A stretch of DNA of 64,000 nucleotides, taken from positions 17,068,001 through 17,132,000 of the forward strand of contig OY754469.1 in assembly GCA_963575645.1 (NCBI GenBank), given 5' to 3'. The position numbers were made by a program, and so were the translations under genes. The notes beneath the pieces are model-generated. The model had not been told where the DNA came from. It saw only the letters and a program-made list of their open reading frames with translations, and made no database searches. The stretch comes from Xanthostigma xanthostigma (lineage: Eukaryota > Arthropoda > Insecta > Raphidioptera > Raphidiidae). The stretch's first letter is position 1. The number at the start of each line of letters is the position of its first letter. Below, one piece after another: positions 7,475 to 60,470 of this stretch.

Positions 7475-7847
7475 GAGTATTCGTCCCAGCAAACACCCCC
7501 TGCACCCTTTATCTCAAATCTTTTCCCCTCGCCTAAAAACGGTTCGCGCTCTCCCGACGCTATTTTTAAAGCTAGAGGGTTCTGGTAAACGCCAAATGAA
7601 AGACAAAGAATCAGACTACAGATCCTTCAGGCGAATTTTTTGAAAAAAAATTCCTGAAAAAACTTACAACCTTTTGAAAAAAATAATAAGTTACGTAATA
7701 TTTCACACGTAGGCGAAACTGTTTTTCAAAAAATTCGCCTGATTCTTTGTCTTTAAAAATAGCGTCGGGAGAGCGCGAACCGTTTTTAGGCGAGGGGAAA
7801 AGATTTGAGATGAAGGGTACAGCGGGCATTTGCAGGGACGAATACTC
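7475..7847. mobile_element. TTAA-flanked MITE, copy 1
   Basis: Inverted arms begin AGAGTATTCGTCCC and contain CTCGCCTAAAAACGG and CGCGCTCTCCCGACGC. TTAA lies at both ends (7471-7474 and 7848-7851), which suggests piggyBac-type target choice. The longer copy at 52057-52476 shows that this one has lost part of its right arm. The hairpin centre is GAAAAAAATAATAAG. Confidence 0.8.
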
Positions 7848-7859
7848 TTAAGGCCTCAC

Positions 7860-8412: not shown

Positions 8413-11400
8413 CTACTCAGTTTTTTTGTTTTTATGCGTTACGAGTTCACCGTCGTTCTGCTGTTTCGATTTGCTTTTCATTAATTCTGAAATCGATAAA
8501 ATTATTGTTATAAAGTACTAACTGTATAATATTATTTATCTATGAGCTTTTAACTTACTCTGAATTAAAATTGATTCCAGTTTGTTGAACGGAAATTCAC
8601 AACCCAATGTCAAAATGACAGCAAAGAATAATGTGAATATTAAATCACCACAGAATTGATATATCTGAAAAAAATATTTTTATAGTTAAACCCTCATGAA
8701 TAGTAATGATACACATATTTTCGATATTATTACTGAATATTGCATTTTGAAATAAAAAAACACCATCGATTATTTCGCGGGAAATTAAATCTTTCTGTCT
8801 TCAAAACATTACGAAATTATCCAAGTGTCTAGACTTTCACGGCCGGCGTTGATCCAAATCTTCTTGGTTTCCGGGCTTGTATGTCGTGGTCCATTAGTAT
8901 TTCTACCTGACGTTTCGTCTACAACTGCGGTAGACATTATCAAAGGCGATGTGGTAGCAAAGAGAGTATCGCACTTGTCGACCTGTGAACAGCCTAGAAG
9001 GACACTTCGCCCGCTACCACATCGCCTTTGATAATGTCTACCGCAGTTGTTTACGAAACGTCAGGTAGAAATACCAATGGATCACGACATACAAGCCCGG
9101 AAACCAAGAAGATTTGGATTACGAAATTATATTTTTATTTTTTGTGAAAATTTAATGATAAATAATAAGTTCAAGTAACTATTTTCTTTAAAATAGAACT
9201 GATTTATTTTCAACCAGTCGGGACTAATCGACTCAAGTAGTTTCCAATCAGAACTATTTTTACATTTTTGACACTTTATTAATGTTTTTCATTGGCTTAG
9301 CTACGTAAGAGGTTAGAGGAGACACTCTGCGTGAGAAGTGGGAGGCTAAAAACTAAAATCAGTTGAAATTAGAGGGTGTTAAAAATACATGAGTTCTACT
9401 GCATGTAATATTTGATATTACAGAAAAATTATCTTTCAGTTTGAATTTTTGTATTTCCTTAAAATAATATTTTTTTTAATAAGAGAAAAAATGTGAACAG
9501 TAGCAATAGGTGCTACCACCTCACAATCTTTTAAATATTCAATTCTGTAAGACTTCAAAGTTCGTTCGCTTCGATTACTGCTTACTTGCAGCATCTAGAA
9601 GGATTAATACGTGAAAACTGTTATTTTACTCACCACTTCCAGATTACTGTAGTGAACCGCCGATCTTAAGCTTGCACTTAGGAAAAATTGCACACTAGAA
9701 TGAATCAGAAAGACAGAATAACTCAGTTTTCCTAGGATTTGGAATGGTGACCAAGTAAGAAAAGTTGTAACAGGACCTATAAAAATAAATGAATAATGCA
9801 GTGATGTTTTATTTAAAACATTAAAGGCCAACTAGCAGAGCATTCGAAAATTCTGAACAAGATTCCAACTTGGAATTTTATTTTAGTTTATCACAGAAAT
9901 TACGCGTGTTGTTTTCTAAACGAAAAACAGAATTTTTGGCATGTACTCCGAAATGTCTGCTGTCAGTTTAAATAATTTTTTGTGACATACCTCCATATCC
10001 ATGTGTACAAGCAACAATAACCCAGCTCAATGCAAGAACCCAAATCGTTCGAGAGAAAGCAATGTAAGACACGGCTAATAAAGGTTCGTATACATAGCCA
10101 GGATGTTGAAAAATGTACATCGTAAATAATATTGTTAACATCACCGATATTGAAAGTGTCCACCCAACAATCACTAAAGACTAAAATAAACAGAAATCGA
10201 TTTGTAAGTATATATTATATTATTAACTTGAACATTATTTTGATGTTTTTTAATATAATGCGATAATCTCCATTTGTTTCCTGTGCGTGGGTTTTTGCAG
10301 TTGGTTTGGAAAATTTTCATTCCATTTCAATTTTTCCCACGCGTAGGGAATTGTAAGAACTATTAATTTCTTCATCATATTTGAGAAAGATTTTTTTATT
10401 TACTGTATTATTATTACAATGGCAAATAATAATCATTACGATTAAATTCCATATACAGCATATTTTCACTGAATTAGTCAACGCACAATATATTTAACGA
10501 CATTATCGTCATAATATTTTTTAGAAGGCTTACATATAAGAAAAATTTAAATGTCACTGTCGGGAGTTGAACTCGAAACAACCAATTTCGCGTTGGCTGA
10601 GTTACGCGAAACTGGTTGTTTCGGGTTTTAGTCCCGACAGTGACATTTAAAATTTTCTTATATGTGAGCCTTCTAAAAAATATTAGAAGAGTAGGTTTTC
10701 GTGAAAAAAGTTTCGATCAAAAATTGCTCAACTTGGAAGGTGAAATCGTTTGCACACAAAAATCACCCCCACCCCCATGCAGATGGTAGGGATGCATCTT
10801 AAATGGCAATCCAAACTTTTTCTCACGGATTATGATTTTTCGAAGAGAAATATCAAATGTTTGTTAGAAAAATTTGTTTATATGGAGCTTCCCTGCACCC
10901 CCAAATGAATGCTCTCGAAAATTCGTTAATCGTTAATCTGAAAAATTTTATCTAACAACATTATCTCCGTCCGAAATTTTCGTGGAAAATATGCAAAATA
11001 AATTTTGAAAGTAATCTCTCACAGAATCGACACACCGAGTCGGTATACATGTTAGAGCAAGACTCAAATAACGGAATACGAATTTTCGAGAACATTCATT
11101 TGGGGGTGCAGGGAAGCTTCGAATAAAAAAAAATCATATAAAACTTTTATATTTCTCTTCGAAAAATCATAATCTGTGAGAAAAAATGTGGGTTGCCATT
11201 TGAAATTTTAGATTCAACCTTCCAAGTTGCGCAACTTTCGTTCGAAACTTTTTTCACAAAAACCTACCCTTCAGGGAATTTAGGACTGTTACCGAACTTT
11301 TTCCGGACCTTATAATGCCAAATACTGATATCTGATACTTAAAAGCTGTCTGATGTTATTTGAGGTTTTTCGTGATAAAATAGAAATAGTGCATTTATTG

Positions 11401-14400
11401 ATGAAAGAATGACTTTATACCTTCTTGATGACAATTCGTTTTCCACGAAGATTATACAGCAAAAATCCAAGTCCTAAACCGATTAACCATGTAGCAGCGC
11501 GTGTATGAGTTAGCCGATAACTCAATACTTTAAAACGTTCTGCTTGTACAGCGCTAAAAAAATAGTTAAAAAATAGTTTTGTTTGATCCAAATAAAATAA
11601 TATTAATTGACTGAAATATACTTGTAAGTGTAGTATCCAGCTTCGAGTCGATTTTTCCAAGCCGTATTGAACGCTACAGAAATGGATATTACGACGAGCA
11701 CCACCAGTTGAAGTGCGCCATATTTCGGCCATTTTTGAAGAGGGATTAGAATAAGGGGTGAAAGCCAGAAGAGTTGTGTGTCAACTGCGAGATACCACGT
11801 TGTTACCATGCACTAGAAACGTATCTTTGATATAAATACATAATAAAAATAAACGAAAAAAAGTTTTTTTGAAAACAAGCTTTTATTAGTTGGTAATAAA
11901 AATGAACAAAAAAGTTAAAAATAATTTTATTCTGGTTAGAAATAAGTCGTTTTATTCAACTCATGCGCACTATTCATGTTTTATCATGCCTAAAAACCGA
12001 ACCCTAAATAGCCATTTACCGACTGGTGACAATTAGTTGTCATAACTCAATGAAAATTCCTACTAGCTCGGCCATTGTGGAGTAATGAAAATAAACGTAA
12101 CTATTTTCTGAGTCGTAACGAAATAGTAGGTAACAACAACTCCGTTGTTACCCATTGAGACTAAAATTGAAAGGCCGAATGTTTTCGACATGAAGTTTAT
12201 TCATAACCGGCTAACCTCAAACCAAAACATTGAATCGTGCTGTTTGGTGCTGTTAGTATTGACAGTTTTTTTTATAAAGAAGTAAATAGATATTTACAAC
12301 ATCTCATTAATAACAATAAATAAAACATGAATAACGCGCAATTGTTGAATAAAATTATGGGCGTAACTTGTAGGCTAAGTCATGACCTGTCAGCGCCATG
12401 AATGACTTAGACTACTAGTTACGCCAATAACTATTATACGTACTTATCACAGTCTCAAGTTTTCAAATAAAAGCGTGTTACACCGTCTTTATGTTCTCTT
12501 TTGTTATTAAAATGTAACACGCTTTTATTTGAAAACTTGAGACAGTGATAAATCGAAATAAAATTATTTTTAACTTTCTAGTAAATTTTAATTAACTAAT
12601 AAAAGCATGTTTAAACAAAATTTCTTTTATTTATTTTTAAGTTTTTAGTGAGTTTTATTAAAAGTGCGATTTGATCTAGAAGAAAGCCGAACCGGTCAGT
12701 TAGTCATTATTATATTGTATTGTCATCGGAACTACATACATATGTAAAATTTCAGCTCATTCGGATAAAGGAAAGTGGGTCAAATTTAATTTGAAAGATT
12801 CGATTTCAGACAGACAGATAGACATCGGGACAGGTGAAAATAAATAAAAGGTTGTAAAAGGCAGTCGTTCACTACGAGAGAACCTGTGATGTAGGTTAAC
12901 TAGCGAAATCAACAAAGTATCTGGAATGCGGTTACCCAAGAACTCAAGATAATTTTCTGGCTACCCTGGAATGGCAGTGTCGTACTGCAGCAACCGTAGA
13001 CGGCTGGTTTCAGCTTCGTCAGATAATTAGATTTTAAAAAATACGCACAGCCTTTCACATTTTTTCCTACTGTTAAAATTATTGTAAAACATTTTTTAAC
13101 GAAGAAAAAGCAAAAGTGTTCCCAACAGAATGGGTTATTTTTGTGAAGTTTACGAAATTGCTTTTCGACAGAAAATGTTCAAAATTTTAATGTAAAAATT
13201 TCAAATGTTTTTTTATAAAAAAAAACTTGCACATACATTCTGAGGTGTTTCGCAATTTTCAGAAAAAAAAGTGCAAATACTTTTTTGTGTAATGCAGTTC
13301 CTTTTCGGTTATCTTCTTGTCAAAGTGACTTTAAATGACCTGTTTTTATTTATTTTTAAATGTTTTTTACATTTAATCTTTTTTAATTGTTTTTTTTTTG
13401 GTAACAAGCGCTTGAATAAAGATATTATCTACGTATATCGATATAATTACCATTTGACCTGGATTAACGTAATTTTGAATGTAGAGCAATGTTGCCCACC
13501 AAAGATTTTCACATTTTTCTTTCATCGTTCCAATAATAGCTGGCCACAGGGGACCTGACCCCGCTCTATACAATAACGTCGTTTCTATTAAAACTACGAC
13601 AGCTAGAGACGGCGTCAATCTGTATTAAATAAAAAAATAATTTTCATTTAACTAACAATCATATTTCTAATTTCATAAATACAATAAATAAGAAATCATT
13701 TTTCTTGCAGGCTAAAGGTGCAAAGTTTCAGAAAATTTCCAGGTATTTTTATAATCAATATTGCCAGTTTCTTTTACTAATTTCTGTCATTTTTAATACA
13801 ATAATTACCTGAGAAAACGGTGCAAGTAGTACAGTGGGATGTTGAGTTTTTTAATTTTTTCCATTTGTTTTAAAAATATGTAACACAGTAACGTGCCGCT
13901 CAGTAAAAGAAATGTATCCGTGACAACAGACATGCCAATAAGGAACATATGTGGAAATTTTGATGACCACTGTAATTGAAATATATTATTAATTGCTACA
14001 ATTACAATGGTGTTAACATGTCGTTACCTAAAAACATGTTCCTACTGCAAGATTTTAACCGTAGAAGATTTAAAGGAGAGAAATTTAGATGATGCATGAC
14101 CTACATTTCTCTTGTTTTGAACATGTTACGCAAATGGAAGAATAGCGGAAGTCACATCAATTCATGGAGGCAAAATATCAGAGCCAGGGATGTGCAGACA
14201 GATCAAGGATCACGTGGGAGGAGGTGGTGAAGCAGATTGCGGTGAACCAGGGGAAAATATTGGGTAAGCTTCGCTGTTCAAGAAGTTTTAGAAGTACAAT
14301 TCTAGGCAACACATTAATGCTGCACTAAGGAATCAGAACAATAGAAAAGGAGATTTTTGTAGCGTATTTTACAATAAATGTCGTCTGTACCGTAAAAATA

Positions 14401-17327
14401 ATCAGGAATAAAAATTAGTTACTTACGTCAACCATTTCAAAATAATTTATGACTGGAAAATGACCACGGGTTTGTCCAAAACGATGACACATTAATACTA
14501 TAACAGTGCTAACAATTCTCAGACCATGCAGACATAACAATTGTTCCTTATCTGTTGTAATTTTCAGCAAATCTCTTCCATTTGAAATAAGAGAAAATGC
14601 AAGTAAAGATTTGCTTTTGGCTTCTAAATAAGAAGAAAATTAATTCATTAAAAAAGAGTAAAATTGAGGTTGATATTTCACATCATCTTATTTACCTTTT
14701 GATTTATATATACAGATTGTTTCATAAACTGTGCCAGCAATGAGTGCTAGGAAAATTGATGCAAGGAATATCCTAAAATATAGATTTTAAAGACTGTTTA
14801 ATGTATTTTAAAAACAGAAAAAATATCGTATTTTTGGAAGATTTAATTTATGTATAAAAATTAATTAATGATAGTGTATGCAACGTCCTAGCGAAAGGAC
14901 CGCTGCAATTTATCGAGGATGTATGAAATTGTCATATTGTAGTATTTTCAGAACTGTAAGCAGGACAATTTTATAGGCAGATAGGTTCATAAATTTAAGC
15001 GCAAATTTCAGGCAAGGCAGTACTACGTTTTGTTGAGCTGAATATTTTATACTTGTATAATATTATGTGTGCATTTTGTAAACAATTGCAACGCAATATG
15101 GTACGCGTAAGATATATTGTGTGTGTTTTATGAACCTGTACTACCAGCAAGACGAAAGCGTCCTGATTGAAGGGCACGCTTCTAGCAGGACAGTACCTCT
15201 ATAAGTATTTTCAGAAGCGCTTATACACTATCATAAATCTTTCAACATTTACACAGGGATGCTGTCATTACCAGGACACATCATAGTGCCGTCCTGGAAC
15301 TTAAGATGAAAAGTTAAGTCCATCTAAAATAAATTCTACAAAACTAGTGATGTTATGTTTTGTTTTAGTCTGTTGTCTTTGTCCCTTGGTAGGTACTAAT
15401 TTTGTAGTTTTACGTCTCTGAACTTAATGAAATAATGTATATTAATTGAGCAAAATACGCGGTTTACTCGAATTGTAAAAATTTTACTTACATGCTGAAC
15501 AGTTCACCTTTTGTGAATGGTTTTAACTCAACTGTTTGACAAAGAGAGGGATTCACAATAATACTCATATTCAGACCTCTGTTTCTGAAAGCAGCTGTCA
15601 GATGCGTCTGAATATCGGAAGCTGAACATTCCGATGGAATACAAATTGACCAACGCAGCAAAAAGTTTTTCACGTTTCGATTCTAAAATATAAATATTTA
15701 GTTAAATGTGATCTACTTTATGGTTTGATTTTTATTCGTTCAAGAAACAAGAAGAAATTTAAATTAACTTACTGCTAAGTCAACCTTTGGAAATATTGTT
15801 CTTGAAATGTTAAACACAGCTAAACAATATTGTCCTTTAATTTGTTGACCTGATGGGTCATCATGGTTTATACTCAAACATTCGTCAAATGCGCCTAATT
15901 CGTAAAAATTTCCCGTTAATAAACCCGAACCAATTTTTGAAGACGCATCAATCACTGTTGGAAAAAAAGATGGACAAATTATAGTATCATACATGCTGAC
16001 CCAAGGTGCACATTCTGTCAGGATAGGAATCTCAGAGTCCCACATTACAAAATTTGTTAATTTTACATATTATTTCTCAATCGTAAATATATTTTAATAT
16101 CAATAATTTTGATTATTCTCATGTCCTTTTTCTTAGTAACAAATAAGTATTTGAAAAATGAATATATTTTAAACAGCTTCATTTAATCCGTCTATGATGA
16201 CGCATAATAATGCTCATGCTCAGTATATTATAAATTATTAAAAGGTTCACGGAAATTTGGGGAATATGCAAATCACAACGGTCAATAAATGGAACTAAAC
16301 GTTGCATCTTTCAATGACAGTTTGATTGTTGTGTTTTATTGTCCAAATTCCCGTGAACGTTTTCATAATTATATAACTACTGTTTTGACATTTCCATGAC
16401 AGAATATCTAATCAAACACATGCATACAATAACAGATGATCTGTCAACTTTAATTATCGACACGCTAAACTCTAAATTGGAGCCGTTGGGTATCCCGTAT
16501 CAACCATGCAAAAAAAAAAACAGGATAGGAAAATGCTCGTCATGAACAGTGGCGTAACTATACCGTTTGAGGCCCGTGACAAATTCATCGGATGGGGCCC
16601 TTCCTCAATGTAAAGAAGCTCAACCAGCATTATCCATTTTTTTGTTTAGTTTGTGATAACGTACTTTAGTAGGTAATTTAAATTAATTGAATACAAAACT
16701 AATAATTAATTTTACTAAATGTTGTAATAATAAATATTAGTATCCTCCTGTATTCATGGACTTCTCGGGCCCGGGGCCCCCTCCGGTCGGGGGTCCGTGG
16801 CATTTTTCCCGTCCTGCCACCTTATTGCTACGCCACTGGTCATGAAATAGCTTTCAATGTGATGTCTGACCACTGTTCACGTCACTTCCACAGCGGCATT
16901 ATTTCTAAGTTTACAATTACACACTTTTGAACATTTTTATTCCCGCCCGAAAAAATAAAAAAAAATTTTTTCTAGCCTATTTCAGTTGTATATAACTTTC
17001 AAAGGACAAGAAACTTACGATGGCTCCATTGAGAAGTTTCAACCTAATATAAACTATATTACGCATTTTATAAAGAGATAAATTTAAAGTGAAAAAATGT
17101 AACCTACTTTTGATGGCCCATAAATCATGTTTTTCTAATCCTTTTAAAAGGGCCGCACTCTGTTCTGCACATTTTTTATTTTTTACAGTACTTTCTTGTG
17201 GCACATAAATATCGTAATAATTATCCAATCCTAATTTGTTTAAAAGTTTTTTATCTCTAATGCAATTTCCATTGCCTATTAAACTTAAGAGCACAAACAA
17301 AATTAACACGATACACTCTGATTTCAT
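8413..17327 (-). CDS. NRF-6-like membrane acyltransferase (nose resistant to fluoxetine family), 13 exons, complete
   Basis: Exons on the minus strand: 17327-17108, 15954-15773, 15682-15492, 14772-14696, 14623-14427, 13969-13809, 13619-13451, 11812-11622, 11553-11421, 10180-9991, 9776-9634, 8664-8559, 8486-8413. All junctions are GT-AG and in phase, giving 2034 nt (677 aa plus TAG). A signal peptide spans about residues 1-22. The NRF N-terminal domain (about 50-195) has conserved cysteines and DASSKIGSGLLTGNFYELG, GQYCLAVF and WSICIPSECS. After a membrane segment (about 198-218) comes the acyltransferase-3 domain (about 250-650): CLHGLRIVS with His270 in MCHRFG, WYLAVDTQLFWLSP (405-418), THTRAATWLIGLGLGF (478-493), THGYGG and ILGKLSYSVFLIHSSVQFFL. 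About ten membrane helices are likely. C. elegans NRF-6 acts in lipid and drug transport; the substrate here is unknown. The Lys/Gln-rich C-terminus is probably cytosolic. The introns carry MITEs but no break in the frame. Confidence 0.95.
8851..9119. mobile_element. Palindromic element A with hammerhead-like core
   Basis: Arms of about 105 bp (from GATCCAAATCTTCTTGG inward) meet around an 80-bp centre. Each arm contains GATAATGTCTACCGCAGTTG, then GAAACGTCAGG on one strand, which forms a small stem-loop before GAAAC. It lies in intron 11 of the NRF-6-like gene. The same inner motif, with different outer arms, occurs at 49.5, 51.1, 53.2 and 57.5 kb. Confidence 0.7.
10512..10684. mobile_element. 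Palindromic MITE in NRF-6-like intron 9
   Basis: Nearly perfect arms run from TAATATTTTTTAGAAGGC to GCCTTCTAAAAAATATTA and contain ATTTAAATGTCACTGTCGGG. The loop carries TTCGCGTTGGCTGAG. TA at the ends suggests a Tc1/mariner-like target, but this is not proven. Confidence 0.75.
10691..11271. mobile_element. Long imperfect inverted repeat in NRF-6-like intron 9
   Basis: The left arm starts GTAGGTTTTCGTGAAAAAAG and contains CTTCCCTGCACCCCCAAATG. The right arm carries the complements in reverse order and ends ACAAAAACCTAC. The arms differ by small indels and unmatched stretches, so this copy is older than its neighbour. Unidentified foldback element. Confidence 0.65.
11874..12613. mobile_element. 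Foldback element containing smaller palindromes, NRF-6-like intron 7
   Basis: The outer arms (from AACAAGCTTTTATTAGTT at 11874, matched by AACTAATAAAAGCATGTT near 12613) share an inner AAAAATAATTTTATT block. Between them lie a short palindrome at about 12358-12430 (GGGCGTAACTTGTAG / CTACTAGTTACGCC) and a sharp palindrome at 12444-12551. Confidence 0.6.
12444..12551. mobile_element. Short perfect palindrome nested in the foldback element
   Basis: Arms TTATCACAGTCTCAAG...AAGCGTGTTAC and GTAACACGCTT...CTTGAGACAGTGATAA are close to identical, around a loop of about 25 bp. The high arm identity implies a more recent insertion than the surrounding element. Confidence 0.7.
12620..13450. repeat. Rest of NRF-6-like intron 7, SINE-like tail at 12.67-12.85 kb
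   Basis: A stretch with TTTCAGCTCATTCGGATAAA and CAGACAGACAGATAGACATC before AATAAATAAAAGG resembles a SINE/LINE 3' tail. No exon of the gene is missing between exons 7 and 8, because their phase joins directly. Confidence 0.35.
16229..16375. mobile_element. Palindromic MITE in NRF-6-like intron 1
   Basis: Arms ATAAATTATTAAAAGGTTCACGG and CCGTGAACG-TTTTCATAATTATAT enclose a short unique centre. The family is unknown. Confidence 0.6.
16547..16838. mobile_element. Non-autonomous hAT element with exact GTCATGAA duplication
   Basis: 292 bp with ends CAGTGGCGTAACTATA and TTGCTACGCCACTG. GTCATGAA lies at 539-546 and 839-846 of the 16-kb block, a perfect 8-bp duplication. The interior has GGCCCGTGACAAATTCATCG near the left and GGGCCCGGGGCCCCCTCCGG near the right. 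A related copy in the opposite orientation is at 39049-39352. Confidence 0.88.
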
Positions 17328-20598: not shown

Positions 20599-23500
20599 TC
20601 AATTGTTCTGATGTACAGGTCTAACGTGATTATTAGCCGGGTAAATACTGCTGTCGAGGCAATCTTCAGGTCGGTATTTACAGGATGTGATGCTTCTTCT
20701 GCGACGACGCTTTCCACTTAGAACACCCAATTGCAAAAGGACTGGATTCGTTACAAGTGCTGCGGCAGCACCCAATAATGCCACACCAGCTAGCGGTACC
20801 AATAGAGACTTCAGGGCAATAGCCTACAGTAAAGACAACAATATTTGAGGTTATTTTAACACATCAGATACGCGAAAGAGTTTCAAAGGGCCGACAAAAA
20901 ATGGAAAAACACTTAAATCTTGCATGTGCATTGCAAAATTGGTTAAGTAAGCCACTTAATCGATTTTGTTTAAATTTCGCAAACGTGTTCAGAACATCTT
21001 CAAACAAAATCGGCCCTAGCTCAATGTGGGAAAAATTGGAAAAAACAAGTTAAAAAAAATGGGAAACATTTTGGTATCCAACTTTAAATATCGTGGAGAG
21101 CCCGTCATAGGTCGTGGACAGGGAACCGTTTCAGAATGTGAGGCTTTCATAATATAACTCGTTTTTACAATACTAATTATCGTATTAAATAAAAAAAATC
21201 ACTGATTCTTTGACAGTTGTCTAAAGTATTTGATAACTTTCATTTTTCTCTGATTTCTTTCTAATTCAAGAAACTTTGGCAGTGAAGTTACTGTACCGTA
21301 TTAATCAGATAGTGAATCTAAGTGGTCTCTAATTTTACAGTTTTGATTTTGACGGCGAAATATTATGCACGGGTGCCAGTTAAAATTATTTTAATTATCA
21401 TAGTAAATTGTATAAATAACGTCTAAACGATTTAATTTTAAACTACTTTTCATTTCAACATCTACTGCGGTAATTTGTATTTAGAATTACTTGTTTTTCA
21501 TTTCCTTCAAAGAACTTAGTAATTTTACTATTGCTTATGATATATATAACAATAGTTGACTTTTTAGTGATGGAGCAGTGCAAGTTACAGATGCTACTAT
21601 ACACACTTTTAAAGAGCAACTATTCCTCTATAATTATTACCTTTAAGCGTAATTCAAAAACAAAAACCTCAGATTTACATGTTAAATGAATAGGAAAATT
21701 GCAAAATCATATAGCGAGTTAAATTTGAAATTTAGGGCTAATATTTGGTGACAATGTTTCAGTCAATGTCTAGAACAATATTTCATTTGTGGAGAGAGAG
21801 AAAAAAATGTTCGTTTCAAACGTAGCAGTCTAATATACATTCATATACGTTTATTCTATACTAAGCATAGGAATAAAATCGCAATCGAACTATTAGGGTG
21901 CAAACATATATACCTACTTCTGTATTTTTTTACGTCGTAAGCACTAGCGTATCCAGGAGTGCAAAACAAGCACGGGGGACCCGGCTTAAAAAATTTCTAA
22001 TTTGCCCCCTCCTGGGCCATAAGCTGAGTACGCCCATGTTAACGTCATAGAAAAAGACAAAGTTTTTGAAACAGAGATACTTTATTCAGATTGAATACAA
22101 GTACATCAACCAATCCTATCATCGGAGAAATCAGGGGATTACATCGAAGAAAGAGACGCAGATATATTTTTGATACGCTTTGTTGCGTTCATTCACCGCA
22201 CATTGAGTAGATAGGCAATGATTTATATAGTTAATTAATAGATATATGTGTACATTGTACAATATTAGTCACGTGTACCGAGTACCTAACCTATAACAGA
22301 TACACATTACAATGCGCATTGCACAGCAAACCTTATCTCTGCCACATTACAAAGAGAGAGAGAGAGAGATGCAGCACAGTAAGAGCTGGTATAGAGCTGT
22401 TCTGACTCTGATAGAGAAGTGTCATGTGCATTGTGCACAGAGTATGCTTCTGTGTGATAAATGTTAATTGATCCGTTCAGCCGTCGCGGTCGGCTCAGAA
22501 AGGACGAAGTCGTTCCTATGGATCTTCTGTCGGCCTAAGATCTTTGAACCGATTCAGAATAGAGATACCCAACTCGAAGTTGAATCTAAAATTTAATTGA
22601 AAATTGTGCAACAGGGATGAAATTGGTCCTCTTTAAAGCTGTCTGAAGTGAGCAAATGTCACCCTGTATTTAAATGTAACCTATTCATTTCGTCACTCTA
22701 CGACTGCTAGCTAGCGATAGCGTTGCATTGTGATGTTATAATAGGGATTTAAATGCCAGTAGTTTTCCATTCAAATTAATCTTTAAAAAATAATCTGGAA
22801 ACTGAATTGAACACTCATTTTATAGCGGGTATTTTAAGTCTATTATTTAACAAAATTTAAGTTCAGAGTTTAATGTACGTAAATAGCATTGAAAGTTTTA
22901 ACATATAATTTCAAAATTTGACGGAGAAAATGTGACATATAATTCCGAGTCTCTTTCTTCAATTTGATTATAAAAGATAATATATTAGTTTCAGTAAAAA
23001 CATCTCTTTTGATAAAGAATTAATCCAGCGTTTTTGTTAAAATCGCATACATTACTGTCCCAGTTCTCAGAAATAAATATTCTTTGCCATTGAATTTAGC
23101 TCAATAAGATGTGTTTAAATGTTTATTTAAGTAATAAGAACACAATTGTTTAAACAAATTAAAAGACCTTAAACTTATTATTATTCTTATCGAGCTGAAT
23201 CGAATGCCACCCAAAAATAATAATAACAGATCGGATAATAGCATTGGACTTATAGTTATGGACGTTCATTTTTGGTGATTTTAGGGGTCACTGACCTTTT
23301 TAAAGTGATAATATTCTTTATGTGAATGGTCGTGACCATATCCATGTCCGTGGTCGGAATGGTGATCGAATCCATGACTACCATGACCACCATGACCACC
23401 ATGACTACCATGATCGTGATAGCTCGAGCCATGTGGTTTGTAGCTTGGATAATGATCGTAACTGTAATGACCTCGATAGAAGCCCTTTTCTCCATCGTAC

Positions 23501-26500
23501 AAACCTACATTCAAACAAAATTCTATTGATGCTTATATTATTTACTTATCGTATACTATAGACGTTGGGCAACCAAGGTCGTTAGCCTCTAATTACACCG
23601 AATTCAGTTAAACGGCACAGTGCCATAGCAGAATTCATGGTAACCGGACTCCATATCCGCGGACAAAATATCCCCGACAAAATATCCTTGTTAAAATATC
23701 CTTGGACAAAATATCCTTGAGACAAAATATCCATGAGACAAAATGTCCTTTGTCAGAATATCCGTGGACAAAAAATACGGGTATGCGAATTGTAATTCCG
23801 GAGTGAACGATAAAGGGGTATGCGAATTGTCTCGCAGTGAAACGGGAAGGGGCAAATGTGGAGTTTTTAAAAAAACAATTCCGGGGTGAACGATAAAGGG
23901 GTATGCGAATTGTCTCGCAGTGAAACGGGAAGGGGCAAATGTGGAGTTTTTAAAAAAACAATTCCGGGGTGAACGATAAACGGGTATGCGAATTGTAATT
24001 CCGGAGTTAACGATAAAGGGGTATGCGAATTGTCTCGCAGTGAAACGGGAAGGGGCAAATGTGGAGTTTTTAAAAAAACAATTCCGGGGTGAACGATAAA
24101 CGGGTATGCGAATTCTAATTCCGGGGTGAACGATAAAGGGGTATGCGAATTGTCTCGCAGTGAAACGGGAAGGGGCAAATGTGGAGTTTTTAAAAAACAA
24201 TTCCGGGGTGAACGATAAACGGGTATGCGAATTCTAATTCCGGGGTGAACGATAAAGGGGTATGCGAATTGTCTCGCAGTGAAACGGGAAGGGGCAAATG
24301 TGGAGTTTTTAAAAAAACAATTCCGGGGTGAACGATAAACGGGTATGCGAATTGTAATTCCGGGGTGAACGATAAAGGGGTATGCGAATTGTCTCGCAGT
24401 GAAACGGGAAGGGGCAAATGTGGAGTTTTTAAAAAAACAATTCCGGGGTGAACGATAAACGGGTATGCGAATTCTAATTCCGGGGTGAACGATAAAGGGG
24501 TGTGCGAATTGTCTCGCAGTGAAACGGGAAGGGGCAAATGTGGAGTTTTTAAAAAACAATTCCGGGGTGAACGATAAACGGGTATGCGAATTCTATTTCC
24601 GGGGTGAACGATAAAGGGGTATGCGAATTGTCTCGCAGTGAAACGGGAAGGGGCAAATGTGGAGTTTTTAAAAAAACAATTCCGGGGTGAACGATAAACG
24701 GGTATGCGAATTGTAATTCCGGGGTGAACGATAAAGGGGTATGCGAATTGTCTCGCAGTGAAACGGGAAGGGGCAAATGTGGAGTTTTTAAAAAAACAAT
24801 TCCGGGGTGAACGATAAACGGGTATGCGAATTCTAATTCCGGGGTGAACGATAAAGGGGTATGCGAATTGTCTCGCAGTGAAACGGGAAGGGGCAAATGT
24901 GGAGTTTTTAAAAAAACAATTCCGGGGTGAACGATAAACGGGTATGCGAATTGTAATTCCGGAGTGAACGATAAAGGGGTATGCGAATTGTCTCGCAGTG
25001 AAACGGGAAGGGGCAAATGTGGAGTTTTTAAAAAAACAATTCCGGGGTGAACGATAAACGGGTATGCGAATTGTAATTCCGGGGTGAACGATAAAGGGGT
25101 ATGCGAATTGTCTCGCAGTGAAACGGGAAGGGGCAAATGTGGAGTTTTTAAAAAAACAATTCCGGGGTGAACGATAAACGGGTATGCGAATTGTAATTCC
25201 GGGGTGAACTAATTTTTTTCATAAATCCGCCGTAAAATGGAACTTTTTGAGATGGACAGATGGACACAGGTATGAAGGCAAATGCTCAGAAAAGAGCATA
25301 TCATGATTACAATGCTCGTTTGAAAAAAGTTGTCTTGGAGTATGATTCGGCTGACAAATACAATGGTAACCGGACTCCATATCCGCGGACAAAATATCCC
25401 CGACAAAATATCCTTGTTAAAATATCCTTGGACAAAATATCCTTGAGACAAAATATCCATGAGACAAAATGTCCTTTGTCAGAATATCCGTGGACAAAAA
25501 ATGCAAAAAAAAATTGACTTTCTACATATAATTCTTTATAACTGTTTCTGACGTCAATTCCGGGGTGAACGATAAACGGGTATGCGAATTGTAATTCCGG
25601 GGTGAACGATAAAGGGGTATGCGAATTGTCTCGCAGTGAAACGGGAAGGGGCAAATGTGGAGTTTTTAAAAAAACAATTCCGGGGTGAACGATAAACGGG
25701 TATGCGAATTATAATTCCGGGGTGAACGATAAAGGGGTATGCGAATTGTCTCGCAGTGAAACGGGAAGGGGCAAATGTGGAGTTTTTAAAAAAACAATTC
25801 CGGGGTGAACGATAAACGGGTATGCGAATTGTAATTCCGGGGTGAACGATAAAGGGGTATGCGAATTATCTCGCAGTGAAACGGGAAGGGGCAAATGTGG
25901 AGTTTTTAAAAAAACAATTCCGGGGTGAACGATAAACGGGTATGCGAATTGTAATTCCGGGGTGAACGATAAAGGGGTATGCGAATTGTCTCGCAGTGAA
26001 ACGGGAAGGGGCAAATGTGGAGTTTTTAAAAAAACAATTCCGGGGTGAACGATAAACGGGTATGCGAATTGTAATTCCGGGGTGAACGATAAAGGGGTAT
26101 GCGAATTGTCTCGCAGTGAAACGGGAAGGGGCAAATGTGGAGTTTTTAAAAAAACAATTCCGGGGTGAACGATAAACGGGTATGCGAATTATAATTCCGG
26201 GGTGAACGATAAAGGGGTATGCGAATTGTCTCGCAGTGAAACGGGAAGGGGCAAATGTGGAGTTTTTAAAAAAACAATTCCGGGGTGAACGATAAACGGG
26301 TATGCGAATTGTAATTCCGGGGTGAACGATAAAGGGGTATGCGAATTGTCTCGCAGTGAAACGGGAAGGGGCAAATGTGGAGTTTTTAAAAAAACAATTC
26401 CGGGGTGAACGATAAACGGGTATGCGAATTGTAATTCCGGGGTGAACGATAAAGGGGTATGCGAATTGTCTCGCAGTGAAACGGGAAGGGGCAAATGTGG

Positions 26501-29500
26501 AGTTTTTAAAAAAACAATTCCGGGGTGAACGATAAACGGGTATGCGAATTGTAATTCCGGGGTGAACGATAAAGGGGTATGCGAATTGTCTCGCAGTGAA
26601 ACGGGAAGGGGCAAATGTGGAGTTTTTTAAAAAAACAAGTCAAGAAAATTGCCGAAACGTTGATCAATAAATAATGTTCTAGTGAATAAAAATTGTTTTT
26701 TTATTTTAGCCTTGTATCCCGTATAATTTTATCATACCGTGGATATTATGTCCGAAGGATTTTTTGTCTTGAGGATATTTTGTCTGAGGATATTTTGTCC
26801 GGGATATTTTGTCCAGGATATTTTGTCCGAGGATATAGAGTCATAGAACCGAATTCATTGGCGCTCACGGCAAGGTTTTGATTTTGCACTCTCAAAATGT
26901 TGTTGGTTAATATACTCAAATAAAACATTTAGTCCAGGAGGCAGTGAAGATTTTCGGTACTTATTTTCCCAGTCAGCAAACACCGATAGAATTATTCGGT
27001 TTGTTATTCTAAGCAAAATTCATATATACGTAAGGGGGGGGGGGGTTCCGATAGGTTGAGGCGGAAAATGCGTTAGAAAGTACAAATTTACTGCACTTTT
27101 TTCCAGTGATAAAAATAGTTCTATTAGTGAGAGATATAGTGAAGTTAAGAAAAAAAATAGTCTGGCTAATTTGTGAGTATGGGCAATATGTAAGGCAGGT
27201 AAAAAATTGGAAAAAATAATCAAAGCCATTGCCCTTATTTTCACAGTCCTAAAAATTTGTCAGATGATAGTATATATGCAGCTTCAAATATAGTCTGGCT
27301 AACATGGAACACCCCGAAAGCCTTGTGAGACTCGTCCAACGCTCGTCAGGCGCGTTAAATTCGGCATGCTTAACAATCTGACTTGTGAGTCTGGCGGGGC
27401 TTTCGTGATTTAAATGACAGCCAGACGTGTATTTTCTATGAAATTATAGTATTATTTATCATGTGACAAATTTTCAAATCCGGGAAAATAAGAGCAAAAA
27501 CTCGTTTGCCAATTACGTAAATCTGCCAGACTTACTTTTGATTAGAGTTTATGATAGTATCAAATGATACGTTAAATTTCAAGCATGGGAAAATAAGGGT
27601 TACGGATTTAAAAATCGGTCAAATTTTTGCATCCGCAAATTTTCAGCCAGACTGAATTTCCTCCACTTGGGATGTGCCAGACTGTTATTTCCATTAATAA
27701 AATGATTCACTTTAATTAATGTCAAATATTTATGACCAGGAAAATAAGTGGACTTGTCTTTTCTTTTTTAACGTGAACCCATCCGAAAATTTTTGCCAGA
27801 CTCACAAATTGCCGTTTTGTGTCACCATCCGAATAAACTATTTCATATTCACCGACTGGGAAAATAAGTACAAAAAAATTCAGTGCCTCCTGGACTAAAT
27901 TATAATCGCATTGCTGATTGTGATTTCGCGTGTTTGCGCTTCCGGCGCAGTCTCGGTTGCCAGGTTCTAGTTACGGTGCTAAAACGACATCACAATGCAC
28001 CCATGAGTGGAGGCGGGATTTAAACCCACGACCAAGGGCGTAGATATGGGACACCTTCCTTCTTGTTTGATATTAATAAAACTTAGAAAAGAATATTGAT
28101 TTTTTTAATTTTAATTTACCCATGACAGTGCTGACAGTGTTGTCCTCACATGATGCATATAATAATTTGACTTAACACTAAAGACAGATATTGAGAATAG
28201 TTTTTCAAAATTGGAAATTGGTATGGTAACCCATCTGCTGAATTTTGAAACTTTTTACTAGTAAATACTCGTATTGAACAACTATTTTTAAGAGGTCTTT
28301 ATTCATGATCTCATAGTTATGGCTAGTTTACACAGTACGAGCTAGCGTACGAGTCAGCCTGCCGAGTAATTACACTGCAGTAACTCGCACTGTTTGGACG
28401 TCACTTACGAGTAACTCACACGTGCGAGTTAGTAGCTCGCATCCAAGTTACTTCAACATTTTTTGTTTTCACTCGCATGCTCGCCCGCCAGCTACTCGTA
28501 CATGACAGCAGCTCGGCCGTCGCTCGCATCGTTTGGACGCGTTCGGCAGTAGCTCGCCAGTGCGAGCGGGATAGTCTACTGAGCGTATCACCGTTTTTTT
28601 TTTTATAACACGTTCACTCGATATCGTGGCAACTCGCAAGACTGGACAGCAGCTACTCGTATCGTGTAGACTGTAGACAGCAAAGGCGAGCCGAGCTACT
28701 GGCGTACGAGTAGACAAGCCGAGTAGCTGTCTATTGTCTGGTCAGCAGCTCGCACTGTGTAAACTAGCCTTTAGTCAAACGTCTATAATTAAAAATAACT
28801 AATAAAGATTTTTAAAAATAATCGTATTTTAACGGTTCCAAGAGCTATGTTGGATTTTCCGACGTATGTACAGAATTTTCAATTTATAATGATGCTTGAA
28901 ATTGAGCAGCTGCTGATGTTGTAAAGTAAAGTTTTTCAGTGTTCATATTCTATAATAAGTTGCCAGACTAATGCTCGGTTGCAGAAATCATTGTCAAAAA
29001 ATCAGATTTGACAATTACCTTAGATTGTGAACATACATATTTCTCCACATGAAAAGCATTGAAGGGTTTTAAATCGATTCTGCTCGAAAAATAATTGATT
29101 GAAACCATATTGTCCTTAAACAGTGTATACGTGTATTTAGCATCTTTTTTTATTGTACGGTTTCCATTTCGAAATAACGTTTTTCTACGCATTTTTATCA
29201 AAATTTAGCATGAAAAGTGATCTCTTTCTATGTAGAACATCATTTGTTTTTGTGCTAGTACAATCTAATGTTCTAGAAGACAGAGCTTGAATATACATTA
29301 GACTGCTTCTGATGTATGGAAACCGTAACCATACGATCACAATCTAAGGTCATTGTCGAATTAAATTTTTTCGACAACCCTTTATCAATGCAACATAAGT
29401 ATCAATTTATTCAAAATATCAATTATCAGTTTTCAGTATCTACCGCTTGTTGCAGGATTTGGGAATTGATTTTATCCAAATATTTTTACACCAAACTCAC

Positions 29501-32500
29501 CATTATGCGACGTATCGTAAGTGGTATCATGTCCTCCTTCAAAATAGCTTCCCCCAATCACATGTTCACCACCAACGTGCCCTTTAATTGCCGTATCCAG
29601 TTCATATCCATGTCCCGTGCCTGTTGTACTATAGCTGCCCAAACCTTCGCCATACGCAGTCGATGCGTACCCAGTACCTATATTAAATATCATGCACAAT
29701 TCTTTTTTTGAAAATACCATTAAACTAGTAGCCCAGACCCGTAAGATTTTTACCTTCAAAACATATTAAAATTTTCGGCGGTCGGGGATTTTCAGACTCT
29801 GGGATTTTAGACATTTTACCGAAATTTAGATATAAATATTTCATATCTAATATTTATAATTGGTCCAAATCTTGTAGATATGCATAGTGCATGGAAGAAC
29901 ATAAAATTTTTCGGGAAAAACACATCTAGTGCTGATCCATCGCTATGTTTTCGGATCTATTTTATCGTCTAATTAACTGTTCGAAAACTAGATTTGAAAA
30001 TACACCAGCGAGTCTGTCCCAGAGAACAGGGGACGAAACGAGTATAAGAAATTTTAGGTTTTCAAGTATGTTGTACTTCACACTATCTACTATGTTTTCG
30101 TCATTTAAATATAAGGGTTTTGGTAAAATATTGTCTAAAATTCCAAAGTTGAAAACTCAGGACGCCGACATAACATGAGAAAGTCAAAAAATTGTAAAAA
30201 TATGCTGTTCGTTGAAGTGAATAAAACCGGTAAACAAAAATTCCTAATTTTTGCAATACTTCAGTCTGTTTTTACCTCAAATGTCTGTAGTATTACAGGA
30301 TGATGGTGTTCAAACTATACACTACAGAAAAAGTGTATTTAAAATATAAGACGAGTGCTCAGAAAATGTCACTGGGTGTAATTTACTGTGTAATAGATAT
30401 AGATGTGACTGTTCGAGTTGTGATCATGCAAACGGAACACTACGGTCCGTGTGCTGAATTTTTTATGTTAAATGATTAAAGACGACTTTAACCATTTAAC
30501 CATAATTTCTGTCATCTATTTTATATTCGATAAAATTTTATCATCGCGTTATTGTAATTTGGTGATTAACTTTTTGTGTTTTTAAGCCATATTTTTGTTT
30601 TCAGATATTGCATAAAAGAATTAAAAAGTTATATTCATCAAAATAACTGAAGCCTTATTTGGTTTATTGACATTTGATAGATTTTTGACTTAGTATATTT
30701 GTGATAACAGTTTACTTTTGATCAAATAACTAGGTACTGAAAGTATATGTATACAGTAAAATATTAATATAGATTATCATGTATGCAATGATAAAAAATA
30801 TGGTACAATTACAAAAAAGAAATAACAAGATTGAGAACTTTAAAAGGTGAAATTATGTTTAAAACGGATAATTGTTCTATCTATTCGTTTAACATTTACT
30901 TTATACGGAAATAATAGATTTTTTTCTAGTAACAAATGTACTTTAAACTAAATATTTATACGCGAAAACAAATCTGCGCCGATAAATTATTTTTAAATAA
31001 TTGAAAATTGTTTATCTGTGCGGATTTGTTAGACAAGATATAAATTAATGTGGAATTTTCTCAATCTTAAATTACGATAAAATGTAGGGAATTTTGATAA
31101 TATTATGTTCATTGAAAGATTACGAATATTAATATATAATTAATAGTCGTATTTTTATGGGTAATTATTGTAAGGTTTTAACTAAAAACAGATATAGGTA
31201 AATAGTTTAAAGTTAAATTTCATTAAAAAATTGGAATTATTCACACAATTGAGAATATTTGTATTACGAAAATGACACATTTATTCAATATCCTATATAA
31301 ACTTTATATAATACGGAATTAATAATTTTCCTAAATTTTTGCCTGTTATTTTATTTGTTTGAGATTAATTCAAAAACTACAGATTCGATTTCTATGGGAT
31401 TTTCCTTATGGTTTTTGTTATGCATCAACAAACAGACTAAGTTATAATGTGATCGTGCTTTTACTAATGGAGGCTAAACAGTTGTCAAAAAACCAACAAT
31501 CAATGCAACCACTTGCTGATAAAGACTAAGTTAATAATGTAATTCGAATTTGCAACCGTCTTTTTCATAACACAGTACGAATAATTTTTTTTGTTTCATA
31601 TATAAAATTCTTGCCTAAAAAATTATTATTAACTAGCCGTTACCCGCATGTTCGCACGAGATTGAGACGAAACACGGATGCGTTCTCTTTTCTCGACGCA
31701 GACGTTCACTAAGAACGAATGTTATGCTAATCCTATCCAAAATAGATTTTTCACCTACCATCACATACCTATTCTCTCTACCTTACTCTCTTCCCTCTTC
31801 CTCTATTTTTCTTGAAATATTATATTGACCTTCCTATCAACGCAACTATCCACACCCACCCACCTATAGTATGTGTGATGGTAGGTGAAAATCCGTTTAG
31901 GATAGGATTTGATTAAAATCCGTTCTTAGCTTGAGTCAAGTGACCCAATGAGCCAGATATTTCGCTTATAATATATTACAGGTACAAGCAATCCCGCCCG
32001 GTTTCACCCGGGTGCAAAAGAACGAATATGGTGAGGGACATGAGTATGCACATTCATATTAGTTTACCGAGATGAATGTTGTGTCCAAATGTCAAGATGA
32101 TCGGAGTTACCGTTTAAAAGTTTTAGGTCGGATGGACAAATTTTGAGTTACATTTTGCAACATTTTTCATTGATGCTCCGCTCCTATTGGTCGTAGCGTG
32201 ATATTATATAGCCTATGGCCTTCCTCGACAAATGGGCTATCCAACAAAAAAAATGTTTTCAATTCGAACCAGTAGTTCCTGAGATTACCGCGTTCAACCA
32301 AACAAACAAACAAACTCTTCAGATTTATATATTTGTATAGATGTAGTGCTGTACAATATAATGCAGATAGTTTGCTGATAGTCTACGCAGTGCAATCGAA
32401 TCTTAAACAGATGTATTAAAAATGAAAATTTGGTGTTCATCGTTGGATAAAAATACCTGTGGGATGGTTGTGATGCGAAGCATATGCGTGAGACGAGCTA

Positions 32501-35500
32501 GCGTATAGCTGGCCGTTTTCCGGTGACGTGCTGCCTTCAGACTGACTTCCGGTAATTCCAGGCTCTCTTTCATTTTGTTTATTACTTGTCATGTTGTCTG
32601 AGATTCGATTTTGAAATGGTGATCTGATTGCATTTTTTATCTAGAATCCAGAAATGTGATTGTTTTGTATAAGGGATTGTAAAGGTTTCAATAAATTTCT
32701 TATTCCATATTATTATTTCTTATTCCATATTAAGATGAGTCAAAATTGTATTAATTGTTATTTGAAATATCTGACTGTATACGTATATGTTTTTACATGT
32801 TACTAGTTTTTACAACCGAAACCGAAATTTACTTCGAGGGCAATTCTAGTGTATATTTGTTAAGTTTTTGTTCATTTTAGCTGTTGCAAATAATGTGTTT
32901 GTCTTCATACAAGCAATTATTTGATAAACGCACGGCAGCGGACAGTTAGCACGGGTGCGAGGGGAAGCCAAGAGTGACACTGCCGCCTCTCTATTATGCT
33001 GATCGTTCCCGAACGCCGCTCGGAAGCTCACGAATCTAGTTTCGGTTTCGGTTTTAGTTTCGGCAGACTTTCTGCCAACACCAAAATTAAACCGAAACTC
33101 AAATTTAACGCCGGAACCGAAGCTGAAACATTCAAAGATGCATTACATCCTGAAGTTTGATGTTAATATTATATCTGTTGTAATTCATAGGTCTCAAGTT
33201 CTAATCTGGGAATGTAAAAAAGTGTGAGCTGGATTTTTAATTTATTATGAAAAATAATAGAAGTATACAGCGGCCCTAAATCGAGATAACTTTGGTAGTT
33301 GTTGAGTTCAAACAAACTCAAAACGATAAAAAACGAATAATACTTCAAAATGAATGCAATGCAATTTTAATAAAAAAATAAAGTCAACAGTTACCGATCA
33401 CTTTTATATTGATTGTAATTCTCTAATCTCTAAATAGTATACAACAAAGTCGCTATCCGCGTCTGTCTGTTAGCTTAGTTGTTTTAAACTAAAAACGGAT
33501 TTTGATGCGGTTTTGACCACCATTTAGAGATTTTTTCTGGAAGGTATTCGTATACCGGATGATCCATTTTAATCTTACCAGGCCGATCTGTCAAGTTACC
33601 GAGCTGTCAAAATCAAATTTTTCAAAGTTCAATGGGAAGGTAATTGAGAAAATTACAGGTGAAAAATAATTTTTCTTGAGTATTTCATAGACAGTACGGG
33701 ATTTTAGAGATTTGACAGAGGGGTCAACTGTCAAATTTTCGTTGACAGAATTGTTGACAGCGAGAATGAACTCTTGCGGAAGTACTCAACTGGTTCTGGA
33801 GTTGTTACAAACGAGACTTTGCACTTTTCACAGCAAGTGACAGTTGACACTTACTTACTAGATTTTTGTTAAATTACTAGATTTACTCTCATAATACCAT
33901 TCTCGCTTTACCGGATCGGGGTCGAGGTGGATTTGTCCACCGGCAAAGAAGACGTCGACGATATGATGACCCAGATGATCCAGATATATTAATAGATATT
34001 ATTGACAACTGTCAAATCTCGAAAATCCCGTCCTGTCCATGAAATAGTCAAGAAAAATCATTTTTCACCCGTATTTTTCTCAATTACCTTCCCATTGAAC
34101 TTTGAAAAATTTGATTTTGACAGCTTGGTAACTTAACAGATTTGCATTTTCGAAAAAAAAGTTGTATTTTTTAACTAAATCAAAATACGTCATAAAAAAT
34201 GGGGGTTGCTATTTAAAAAATTCAACTTACAACTTTTGTTGGAAACTTTTTTTTTAACCCCACTGTTTTCAAATATCTGCCTGGTAAGATTAAAATGGCT
34301 CATTCTGTAGATATACGTTGATATTATGATAGCAGAAAAATCTCTATGTTGTGTAATTAAGTAGTAAAAAGACGCTTTTAAAGCGCTTACATGGCTTAAG
34401 CTGACTAAACTAATCAAATTAATGTACTACAGAATTTTACAAAAGTCTGTGGGAAAATCCGTGATAGCATATCATGTCTATCTTCTAAGGATGATTCATA
34501 GTAACCATTTTTATTTTTAATAAATTTTATCAAAAATAAAAAATTTAGATCAAAATTGATCTTTACATTTACATCATTTAAATGAATGTCTTTAAATATA
34601 TCACAGACTTAAAAATTACTCGCAACAAAATAATTATGTTTTACTTGCTTGGCGACACTTGCGAAGCTTTTTTTGCCTGACATAGTATTAATCATTATCC
34701 AATTAAAAATGTTATCTTTAATAGGCAATCAACAAATCAGGGCGAAGCCGGACCACGCTGCTAGTTATAAAATATAGATAAAAGTGGTCTACTAGATAAG
34801 TGGTTGGAAATCGGTACCTTTACCCTCTCATCGGAATGCCTTTATCATTGAGGATAAAATATTTCTAAACAGTTTCAAGATGTTGCATTACATTGTTTTT
34901 TTACTGATGCATTATCTTCAAAACGTTATCTAGATAATTTTTACGAAGCATAGACTATCTAAATGAATAATTGAATAAATCAGTTACTCAGTAACAGAAT
35001 AAGTTAAAACTATTTGGTATTTGATATGAGAAAAATATTATTTCCTGATAAATATAATATCTTGTCTCACAATATCACAATTTTTCACATTTAATTTAAC
35101 ATTAATTACTAAATTAAAATTACATAAGTATATCATTATTTTCTTTCAGGTTTGTAGATATTTTGTATGACATTTAGATATGAACTTTTGTATAAATCGG
35201 TTCAGTCGTGCCCAAATGAAGCTAGTACAGACCGCAACATTTGAAAACAGTTGAACCGATTTTAATGAAATAGTTTAAGTACTGTCTACTGGTACCTAAA
35301 CAAAGAGCAGACTACTTTCAGTCCGGCTACAAACTGGCTAGGGTAAAGGCCGCTGCACACGAGGCTACAAACGCTGCCAGGAGTTCTGCTAGCCGGTAGG
35401 CTGGGTACGAAGCTAGAAATGACGTCACTGCGGGCTGGCCTGCTAGCTCACAAGATAGGTTTTAAAATTAGAACAAGGGTTATTTTCCCTGCGAGATTTG

Positions 35501-42838: not shown

Positions 42839-42895
42839 ACTATCGTCCGTAAACCGACTTTACAGACAACTAATTTTTTTTTTCTTCCTTCTCAG

Positions 42896-44472
42896 ATAAC
42901 GAAACGCGAGGGGTGCCATATTTCATCTGTGAGTTATGCTCCTCTCAACTGGAAAACAGTTACCAATTTTATATGCAAATAGTTCAGTGTGAGAAAAAAC
43001 TGCGACACTATCTGAGGCGATTACACAGTTCTAACGAACAATCTGAATATCCAATTGAGGAGCCTTCTGAAGAGCGTTTGGTCCACAAAACTAACGCCGA
43101 GAAAAATATTAGAGAAGAAATGTCTTTAAAACTCGAAGTCGAAAAGGAATTAATCGAAGACAGCTCATTAATTCCAGTAGCGTCTGCTGACATCACAGAG
43201 ACTTTATCTATGGATAACGACAATGAACTCAGTTGCGAGGACACAAAAATCGGTATTGGTCTAGTATCAGGAAATCTAACTGAAGCACCTGCTGATACAG
43301 AAGACACTTTATCTAGCGGTTATGGCTACGAAGAAATCAGTTGCGAGGACACAAAGGTCGGGTTTGGCTACATGTTAAAATTCGAAATCAAAGACGAACC
43401 GATTGATGATAATACATTTATTCAAACAGAACCACCGGACAATATACAAAACTTATTTAAAGATAATGTCAGTTATATTAGCAGCAAAGACACAAAGATC
43501 GGTACTGATCACATAGTGAAATATGAAATCAAAGACGAACCATTCGATGACAGTTCAATGATTCCAGCAGCACTTGCTGACACTGAAGAAAGTAATTTAT
43601 CCAAGGATGATGACAGTGAGACTTGTCATCTTTTTGCAGATGTAACAGCAGCTGAAAAAAGCAAAGAAGGGAGCAAAAATAGGATGTGCAAAAAAACAAT
43701 TAAAAAAAAGTCGTATCAGTGTGACGTTTGTCATAAATGTTTCATTTACTCAGGCAATTTACACAAACACAAGTGCGTACATACTCGTGAGAAACCGTAT
43801 CATTGTGGCATTTGTAATAAGTATTTCTCACATTCAAGTACTCTAAGTTATCACAAACAAACACATACCGGTGAGAAACCGTTTCAGTGCGACATTTGTA
43901 ATAAGTGTTTCTCTCAGGCATATAATTTAAATATGCATAAAAGATCACATACTGGTGAGAAACCGTTTCAGTGCGACATTTGTAATAAGTGTTTCACTCA
44001 AGCATATAATTTAAATATGCATAAAAGATCACATACTGGTGAGAAACCGTTTCAGTGCGACATTTGTAATAAGTGTTTCTCACAGTTAGTTCATTTAAAT
44101 TGTCACAAAAGGACACATACTGGAGAGAAACCGTTTCAGTGTGACATTTGTAATAAGTATTTCTCGAATTCAAATCATTTAAGTTGTCACAAAAGGACAC
44201 ATACTGGTGAGAAAACGTTTCAGTGCGACGTTTGTAATAAGTGTTTCTCGCATTCAAGTACTTTAAAGCGTCACAAAAGTACACATACTGGTGAGAAACC
44301 GTTTCACTGCGACATTTGTAATAAGTGTTTCTCACAGTTATGTCATCTAACTCGCCACAAAAGGACACATACTGGTGAGAAACCGTTTCAGTGCGACGTT
44401 TGTAATAAGTGTTTCTTTCGGACAGATCATTTAAATAAGCACAAACTGACACATACTGGTGAGATATACTAG
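42896..44472 (+). CDS. C2H2 zinc-finger protein with partial ZAD, main (last) exon
   Basis: The acceptor TTCTTCCTTCTCAG precedes a phase-1 exon ending in TAG. Its start VPYFICELCSSQLENSYQFY is the second half of a ZAD domain, the zinc-binding dimerisation module of insect zinc-finger factors. The first C-x2-C half should come from an upstream exon that I could not find. The acidic linker repeats EIKDEP(I/F)DD-type motifs, which fit the SUMO-attachment consensus. Nine C2H2 fingers follow, joined by TGEKP-type linkers, most of the form FQCDICNKCFSQ...HKRTH, ending TGEIY. Such proteins bind specific DNA in the nucleus. Targets are unknown. No ATG opens the frame before the ZAD half, so the true start is upstream, or at Met 42974 if the ZAD half is not used. 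Confidence 0.88.
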
Positions 44473-60235: not shown

Positions 60236-60470
60236 CGGTATATATGCTGATGTTAAGTAACTCAAGTGGACTAACACATAGATTGTAGATTATAGACGCT
60301 CAACAGTCAATGTGTGTATTAGAGAATTTGTCTGTCAACATTGAGTGTTAGGCGTTCGAGTTACTGAGAGTGTTAATTCTCAAAATTTGAATGCAAACTA
60401 CATTCCAATGTTTCCCTAGAGGGAAAGCGGACTATCAGGCATATTCAATATTAATAGTCAGGGTGCCCGT

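Follow-up and report, generated by a model that had tools for sequence, protein, structure and literature searches.

Satellite-carrying, non-autonomous inverted-repeat elements are already known, among them Tetris of Drosophila virilis and the Xenopus miniature inverted-repeat transposable elements (MITEs) miDNA4 and Xstir. Judged against the excerpts of the published accounts on which all of our comparisons draw, a locus in the genome of the raphidiopteran insect Xanthostigma xanthostigma is a further member of this company. We analysed 64 kb of contig OY754469.1 (positions 17,068,001 to 17,132,000; hereafter the window, which all of our within-window scans cover and in which positions are numbered from 1). 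It contains a 3,212-bp element in which two arrays of a 120-bp satellite lie between inverted ends. This element very probably entered an intron of a gene by transposition, as a non-autonomous cut-and-paste element that duplicated 8 bp of its target.

Tetris resembles the Xanthostigma element in being non-autonomous and in having inverted ends, target duplications of 8-10 bp and homogeneous tandem repeats that are also found as end-less arrays (PMC4079207). Its repeats of about 220 bp are part of long inverted ends of up to 1,735 bp (PMC4079207), whereas the 120-bp array described here lies between short, word-built ends; the comparison is one of descriptions, not of sequences. As in miDNA4 and Xstir, a non-autonomous inverted-repeat element holds an internal tandem array, and such MITE-internal arrays may turn into free satellite (PMC9659126, PMC12628747). 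Galileo and other Foldback-like elements share internally repetitive inverted ends, together with frequent rearranged and chimeric copies (PMC3573991). They differ, again by description and not by sequence, in their 7-bp duplications and their place in the P superfamily, as against 8 bp and GG ends here (PMC3573991). The Helitron-type satellite carriers, DINEs and CgHINE, are likewise non-autonomous with central tandem repeats (PMC9659126).

Inverted ends and target duplication

Two properties of the outer boundaries carry the transposon reading. The left terminal inverted repeat (TIR), F1, and the reverse complement of the right one, F', are identical at 87 of 110 positions in an ungapped alignment (features are listed in the table below). 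In a register scan from -20 to +20, only offset 0 exceeded 0.6, and its neighbours within ±3 reached at most 0.41. Both termini begin with GGT, the right one as GGTTCTA. The second property is an exact 8-bp match, GAATTCAT, which abuts the outer ends of F1 and F' at register 0. Among 20,000 random paired ends, 22 had matched repeats of 8 bp within ±10 positions, and an 8-bp match at a fixed position was seen in 67 of 1,000,000 random pairs. For the 11 other inverted pairs listed by a scan of the window (span below 4 kb, E up to 1e-3), the corresponding matches are all shorter than 8 bp, the longest being 6 bp. An earlier, sequence-only reading of this stretch had proposed that a transposable element carries the tandem repeats, with the same block F ahead of each array and a reversed F-like block closing the right side. 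All three blocks are present, the right one inverted and diverged, and the register-matched ends with the exact duplication at them support the proposal well.

The ends themselves are repetitive. Words of 13 bp and of GGACAAAATATCC type occur at offsets 22, 36, 50, 65, 81 and 97 in F1 and are common to F', and, counted from the terminus, each arm has ACAAAATATCC-type words at offsets 24, 38, 52, 67, 83 and 99. In Galileo, repetitive ends hold multiple extra transposase sites (PMC3688188). On this model, we infer that a transposase made elsewhere would bind at the GGT termini and at the recurring GGACAAAATATCC-type words, and move everything between them. Conservation between F and F' amounts to 69 of 78 positions in the words versus 3 of 10 in the linkers; the words were chosen by motif, and agreement in register does not make them more similar, and we therefore do not use this difference as proof of selection. 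Within the element, we found no frame of at least 100 aa other than minus-strand translations of the satellite, F and the junctions, as judged by eye.

Several observations weigh against this account. Stretches of similar length drawn at random share a word of at least 8 bp in 772 of 3000 draws; such matches are common by chance, and it is the register alone that makes the GAATTCAT duplication convincing. Part of the motif, GAATTCA, occurs additionally at 23600-23606. A competing 10-bp match, ACCGAATTCA (23597-23606), pairs with the right side and was rejected as the target duplication, being displaced by 32 bp from the register of the TIRs. As to the words as binding sites, those matched by register are no more similar than words at non-corresponding positions (480 of 720 permutations did as well), and a seventh, weaker ACAAAATATCC-type word at offset 114 is present in F and absent from F'. 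Finally, only one F-bracketed copy occurs in the window, and the reading is based on that copy.

Table. Positions in the window of the putative element, its parts and related features
Feature	Positions	Strand	Remarks
Host gene model, 248-aa Gly/His-rich protein, four coding exons	32457-32592, 29501-29677, 23296-23504, 20599-20823	-	
Host intron	23505-29500	-	between coding exons 29501-29677 and 23296-23504
Target site duplication, left copy	23631-23638	.	GAATTCAT; exact 8-bp match, register 0 of the inverted ends
Putative whole non-autonomous TIR element	23639-26850	+	3,212 bp; outer boundaries from inverted ends and target duplication
F1, left TIR	23639-23776	+	starts GGTAACC; 13-bp words of GGACAAAATATCC type
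Array 1	23777-25209	+	12 anchored 120-bp units; first anchored unit 83 bp
155-bp segment between array 1 and F2	25210-25364	+	no match to F or satellite
F2, second left end	25365-25502	+	138 bp identical to F1; starts at the same terminus
52-bp spacer	25503-25554	+	after F2, not after F1
Array 2	25555-26638	+	9 anchored 120-bp units
Right unique segment	26639-26740	+	array 2 to right end
F', right TIR	26741-26850	-	diverged inverted F
Target site duplication, right copy	26851-26858	.	GAATTCAT; exact match to left copy
Stray array, without F	59724-59945	+	about 1.9 units of the 120-bp repeat; anchored unit about 96% identical to element units

Satellite arrays and the second left end

The arrays are nearly uniform. 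Anchoring on the first 37-bp core located 22 units across the window: 12 belong to array 1, nine to array 2, and one lies at 59829. Satellite DNA typically forms long and abundant arrays, mostly in heterochromatin; about 23 units of the 120-bp repeat are visible in the 64 kb. At period 120, Tandem Repeats Finder (TRF) reported 11.1 copies with 98% matches in the array 1 region (23877-25209) and 9.0 copies with 99% matches in the array 2 region (25555-26638). Pairs of units are on average 98.8% identical when both come from array 1 (66 pairs) and 98.7% when both come from array 2 (36 pairs); the 108 pairs drawn across the two arrays likewise average 98.7%. The consensus unit consists of 37 + 46 + 37 bp, with a single position differing between the two 37-mers. 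Its G+C content is 45%; of the 32 bins of 2 kb in the window, the 29 lying outside the element have 27-37%. The sequence-only reading had counted 21 near-identical units in two arrays, in agreement with our 12 + 9 at about 99% identity, and its 84 + 36 bp substructure is the same unit cut at another point.

Each array has private variants, and none is common to both; at unit position 119, for example, five units of array 1 have C and two of array 2 have A. Variants in array 1 recur with a period of three units, and a 359-bp period is also reported by TRF. Array 2 opens and closes with CAA in the same phase, as expected if one 120-bp segment multiplied in place. The satellite may be passenger DNA, captured by the element or born within it; unequal exchange or slippage, adding one or more units at a time, would then have extended the arrays, and it is the three-unit pattern of array 1 that suggests steps of several units. 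We considered and dropped the idea that the minus-strand frames, which are open through the satellite, code for a protein, because 120 is divisible by three and one open unit therefore opens the whole array.

Identity between F2 and F1 extends past the terminus to the 2 bases before it, and the start of F2 agrees with the F1 terminus to within 2 bp. The 8 bp directly before F2 read AATACAAT. Beyond a 15-bp stretch, nothing in the 155-bp segment ahead of F2 matches elsewhere in the window; an open frame of about 38 codons in it, delimited by eye, found no match in either Pfam (E up to 0.05) or PDB (E up to 10). F2 thus begins as a true transposon end does, with unrelated DNA ahead of it, which points to another member of the family as its source. 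The sequence-only reading had taken F and its array to be duplicated as a block. This is shown for F only: the arrays have no private variant in common, and array 2 alone comes with the 52-bp spacer.

Our tentative preference, held at somewhat less than even confidence, is that F2 arose in a single event of ectopic one-sided repair. A break in array 1 would have been repaired by copying another family member from its interior outward past its left end; the copied flank of that member would be the 155-bp segment, and end-joining would have followed. This history is drawn from the layout alone, and the same layout would arise if one copy had inserted into another and a right end had since been lost, or if two neighbours had moved jointly.

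Under nested insertion, a copy jumped into another, and the stretch separating their right ends was then lost by recombination between these ends. Two left ends, a single right end, an intact outer duplication and an exact inner left end all agree with such a course. It is nonetheless doubtful, as it predicts that the segment after array 1 is normal family interior, yet this segment does not match the one after array 2. Joint movement of two neighbours, the left one without its right end, would have carried the intervening 155 bp along on one end from each. Although the 8-bp duplication brackets F1 and F', and F2 begins at a terminus after unrelated DNA, we regard this as unlikely, in that it requires a truncated left partner and an unusual pairing of ends; nothing here separates such a composite from repair or nesting. 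That a composite transposon moves flanking genomic DNA and satellite as one 3.2-kb unit is, in our estimate, quite unlikely. If it did, element and satellite would seed new arrays in gene introns, and end-less copies such as that at 59724-59945 would be arrays escaped from their carrier.

That stray array lies 33 kb from the F element. Inverted arms, GCAGRGTCGTATTT, surround it at chance level (143 of 2000 random pairs reach their score), and we rejected the idea that it sits in a MITE of its own, since the arms are no better than chance and no matching duplication was seen by eye. Arrays lacking F had been named beforehand, in the sequence-only reading, as refuting its proposal of an element that carries and spreads a satellite. 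The 120-bp satellite does exist apart from F and is hence not always F-borne; the transposon reading of the intronic insertion stands. The repeats of Tetris, too, occur with and without element ends (PMC4079207). An F-less array 33 kb away, with flanking arms at chance level, is what an ordinary dispersed satellite or minisatellite would leave if seeded by extrachromosomal circles or local slippage, with coincidental border words and no transposition of the whole unit. We consider this highly improbable for the intronic locus, where it leaves the register-matched 110-bp inverted ends and the exact 8-bp duplication at them unexplained. Remoter still is an assembly artefact with F1 and array 1 as a misjoined duplicate: identical F copies and near-identical units are difficult to assemble, but the arrays differ in private variants, the junctions hold unique sequence and the outer duplication fits the full span.

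Superfamily affinities

The ends and the duplication would fit Merlin, a candidate assignment judged from these two features. Merlin elements have TIRs of 24-462 bp ending in GG, target duplications of 8 or 9 bp and, in some families, internal tandem repeats (PMC8101967). The GG termini at both ends of the present element (GGT), its 8-bp duplication and its 110-bp TIRs are all in keeping with that description (PMC8101967). Merlin elements are mobilised by a transposase with a DDE_Tnp_IS1595 domain; among the frames of at least 100 aa within 23639-26850, read by eye, we found no transposase. Of the longer Merlin terminal motif, GGNRM, the left terminus (GGTAA) is a fit and the right one (GGTTC) is not.

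Elements of the hAT and P superfamilies make 8-bp duplications and have termini of the C/T-A type; the duplication agrees, but the termini GGTAACC and GGTTCTA do not. miDNA4 has been assigned to Tc1/mariner, a superfamily that duplicates the 2-bp target TA and to which the 8-bp duplication here is unsuited. Helitrons have neither target duplications nor terminal inverted repeats, and end in TC...CTRR. These traits set the Helitron-type DINEs and CgHINE apart from the present element, which has a duplication and GG...CC ends, and a Helitron was accordingly rejected. A Mutator affiliation is possible, because Tetris was assigned to Mutator by its authors on duplications of 8-10 bp (PMC4079207). 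Measured against such Tetris-type, Mutator-like foldback elements, the 8-bp duplication agrees, while the TIRs here are short and the satellite is central rather than within the TIR.

Host gene, surroundings and outlook

Once spliced together, the four exons of the host gene yield an open frame of 248 aa that runs from an ATG to a stop codon, and all three introns are GT...AG. Exon ends were picked by eye, with the closed spliced frame as the check. Open frames over two of the four exons match no Pfam family. The spliced frame upholds the intronic position of the satellite given in the sequence-only reading, which had called the intron the third; it is the second in the four-coding-exon model.

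Inverted-repeat units are numerous in the window, which makes it rich in MITE-like elements. One of them, a 974-bp unit at 26927-27900 with ATTTAGTCCAGGAGGC ends and no clear target duplication, lies 76 bp to the right of the F element. The arms of another, at 7471-7851, agree at 94% over 101 bp; its ends are of the GAGTATTCGT kind, with TTAA at matched register, and we take it to be, perhaps, a piggyBac-like MITE. Further units lie at 33553-34309, 60470-60890, 56200-57019, 10686-11272, 11844-12639, 31709-31929, 48966-49190 and 28991-29377. Similar short stretches at about 440-480 (+) and 28000-28040 (-) have a tRNA-like B box by eye and are perhaps a short interspersed element (SINE). ARAGORN found no tRNA in the window, and no Rfam family reached its gathering score there. 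A 532-aa frame (42874-44469) contains an 84-bp tandem repeat (43779-44464) within its C2H2 zinc-finger coding part, an open frame at 15767-16069 (-) matches Pfam NRF, the nose resistant-to-fluoxetine N-terminal domain, and a reverse transcriptase remnant scores below its cut-off.

Relatives were also sought outside the window. Among viral contigs, a 38-bp satellite pattern, a 22-letter satellite pattern and the doubled F word each gave 0 stretches, and a satellite-peptide search gave five stretches matched by pattern, with 0 confirmed. In prokaryote genome contigs, the doubled F word found one stretch, a short word run in the otherwise different DNA of a cyanobacterial metagenome-assembled genome. 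Genomes of insects or other animals are not, as such, part of these collections, whose null results carry little weight. A search of open-licence full text for sequence words yielded no paper with these sequences; it returned seven papers, in each of which a 12-letter word was matched once, under titles on other subjects.

The window thus offers a near-uniform tandem array inside a defined intronic transposon insertion, and, 33 kb from it, a free array of the same 120-bp unit. Should the family prove multicopy, it would allow a direct test of whether transposition seeds satellites outside heterochromatin, and of the exit of arrays from their carriers.

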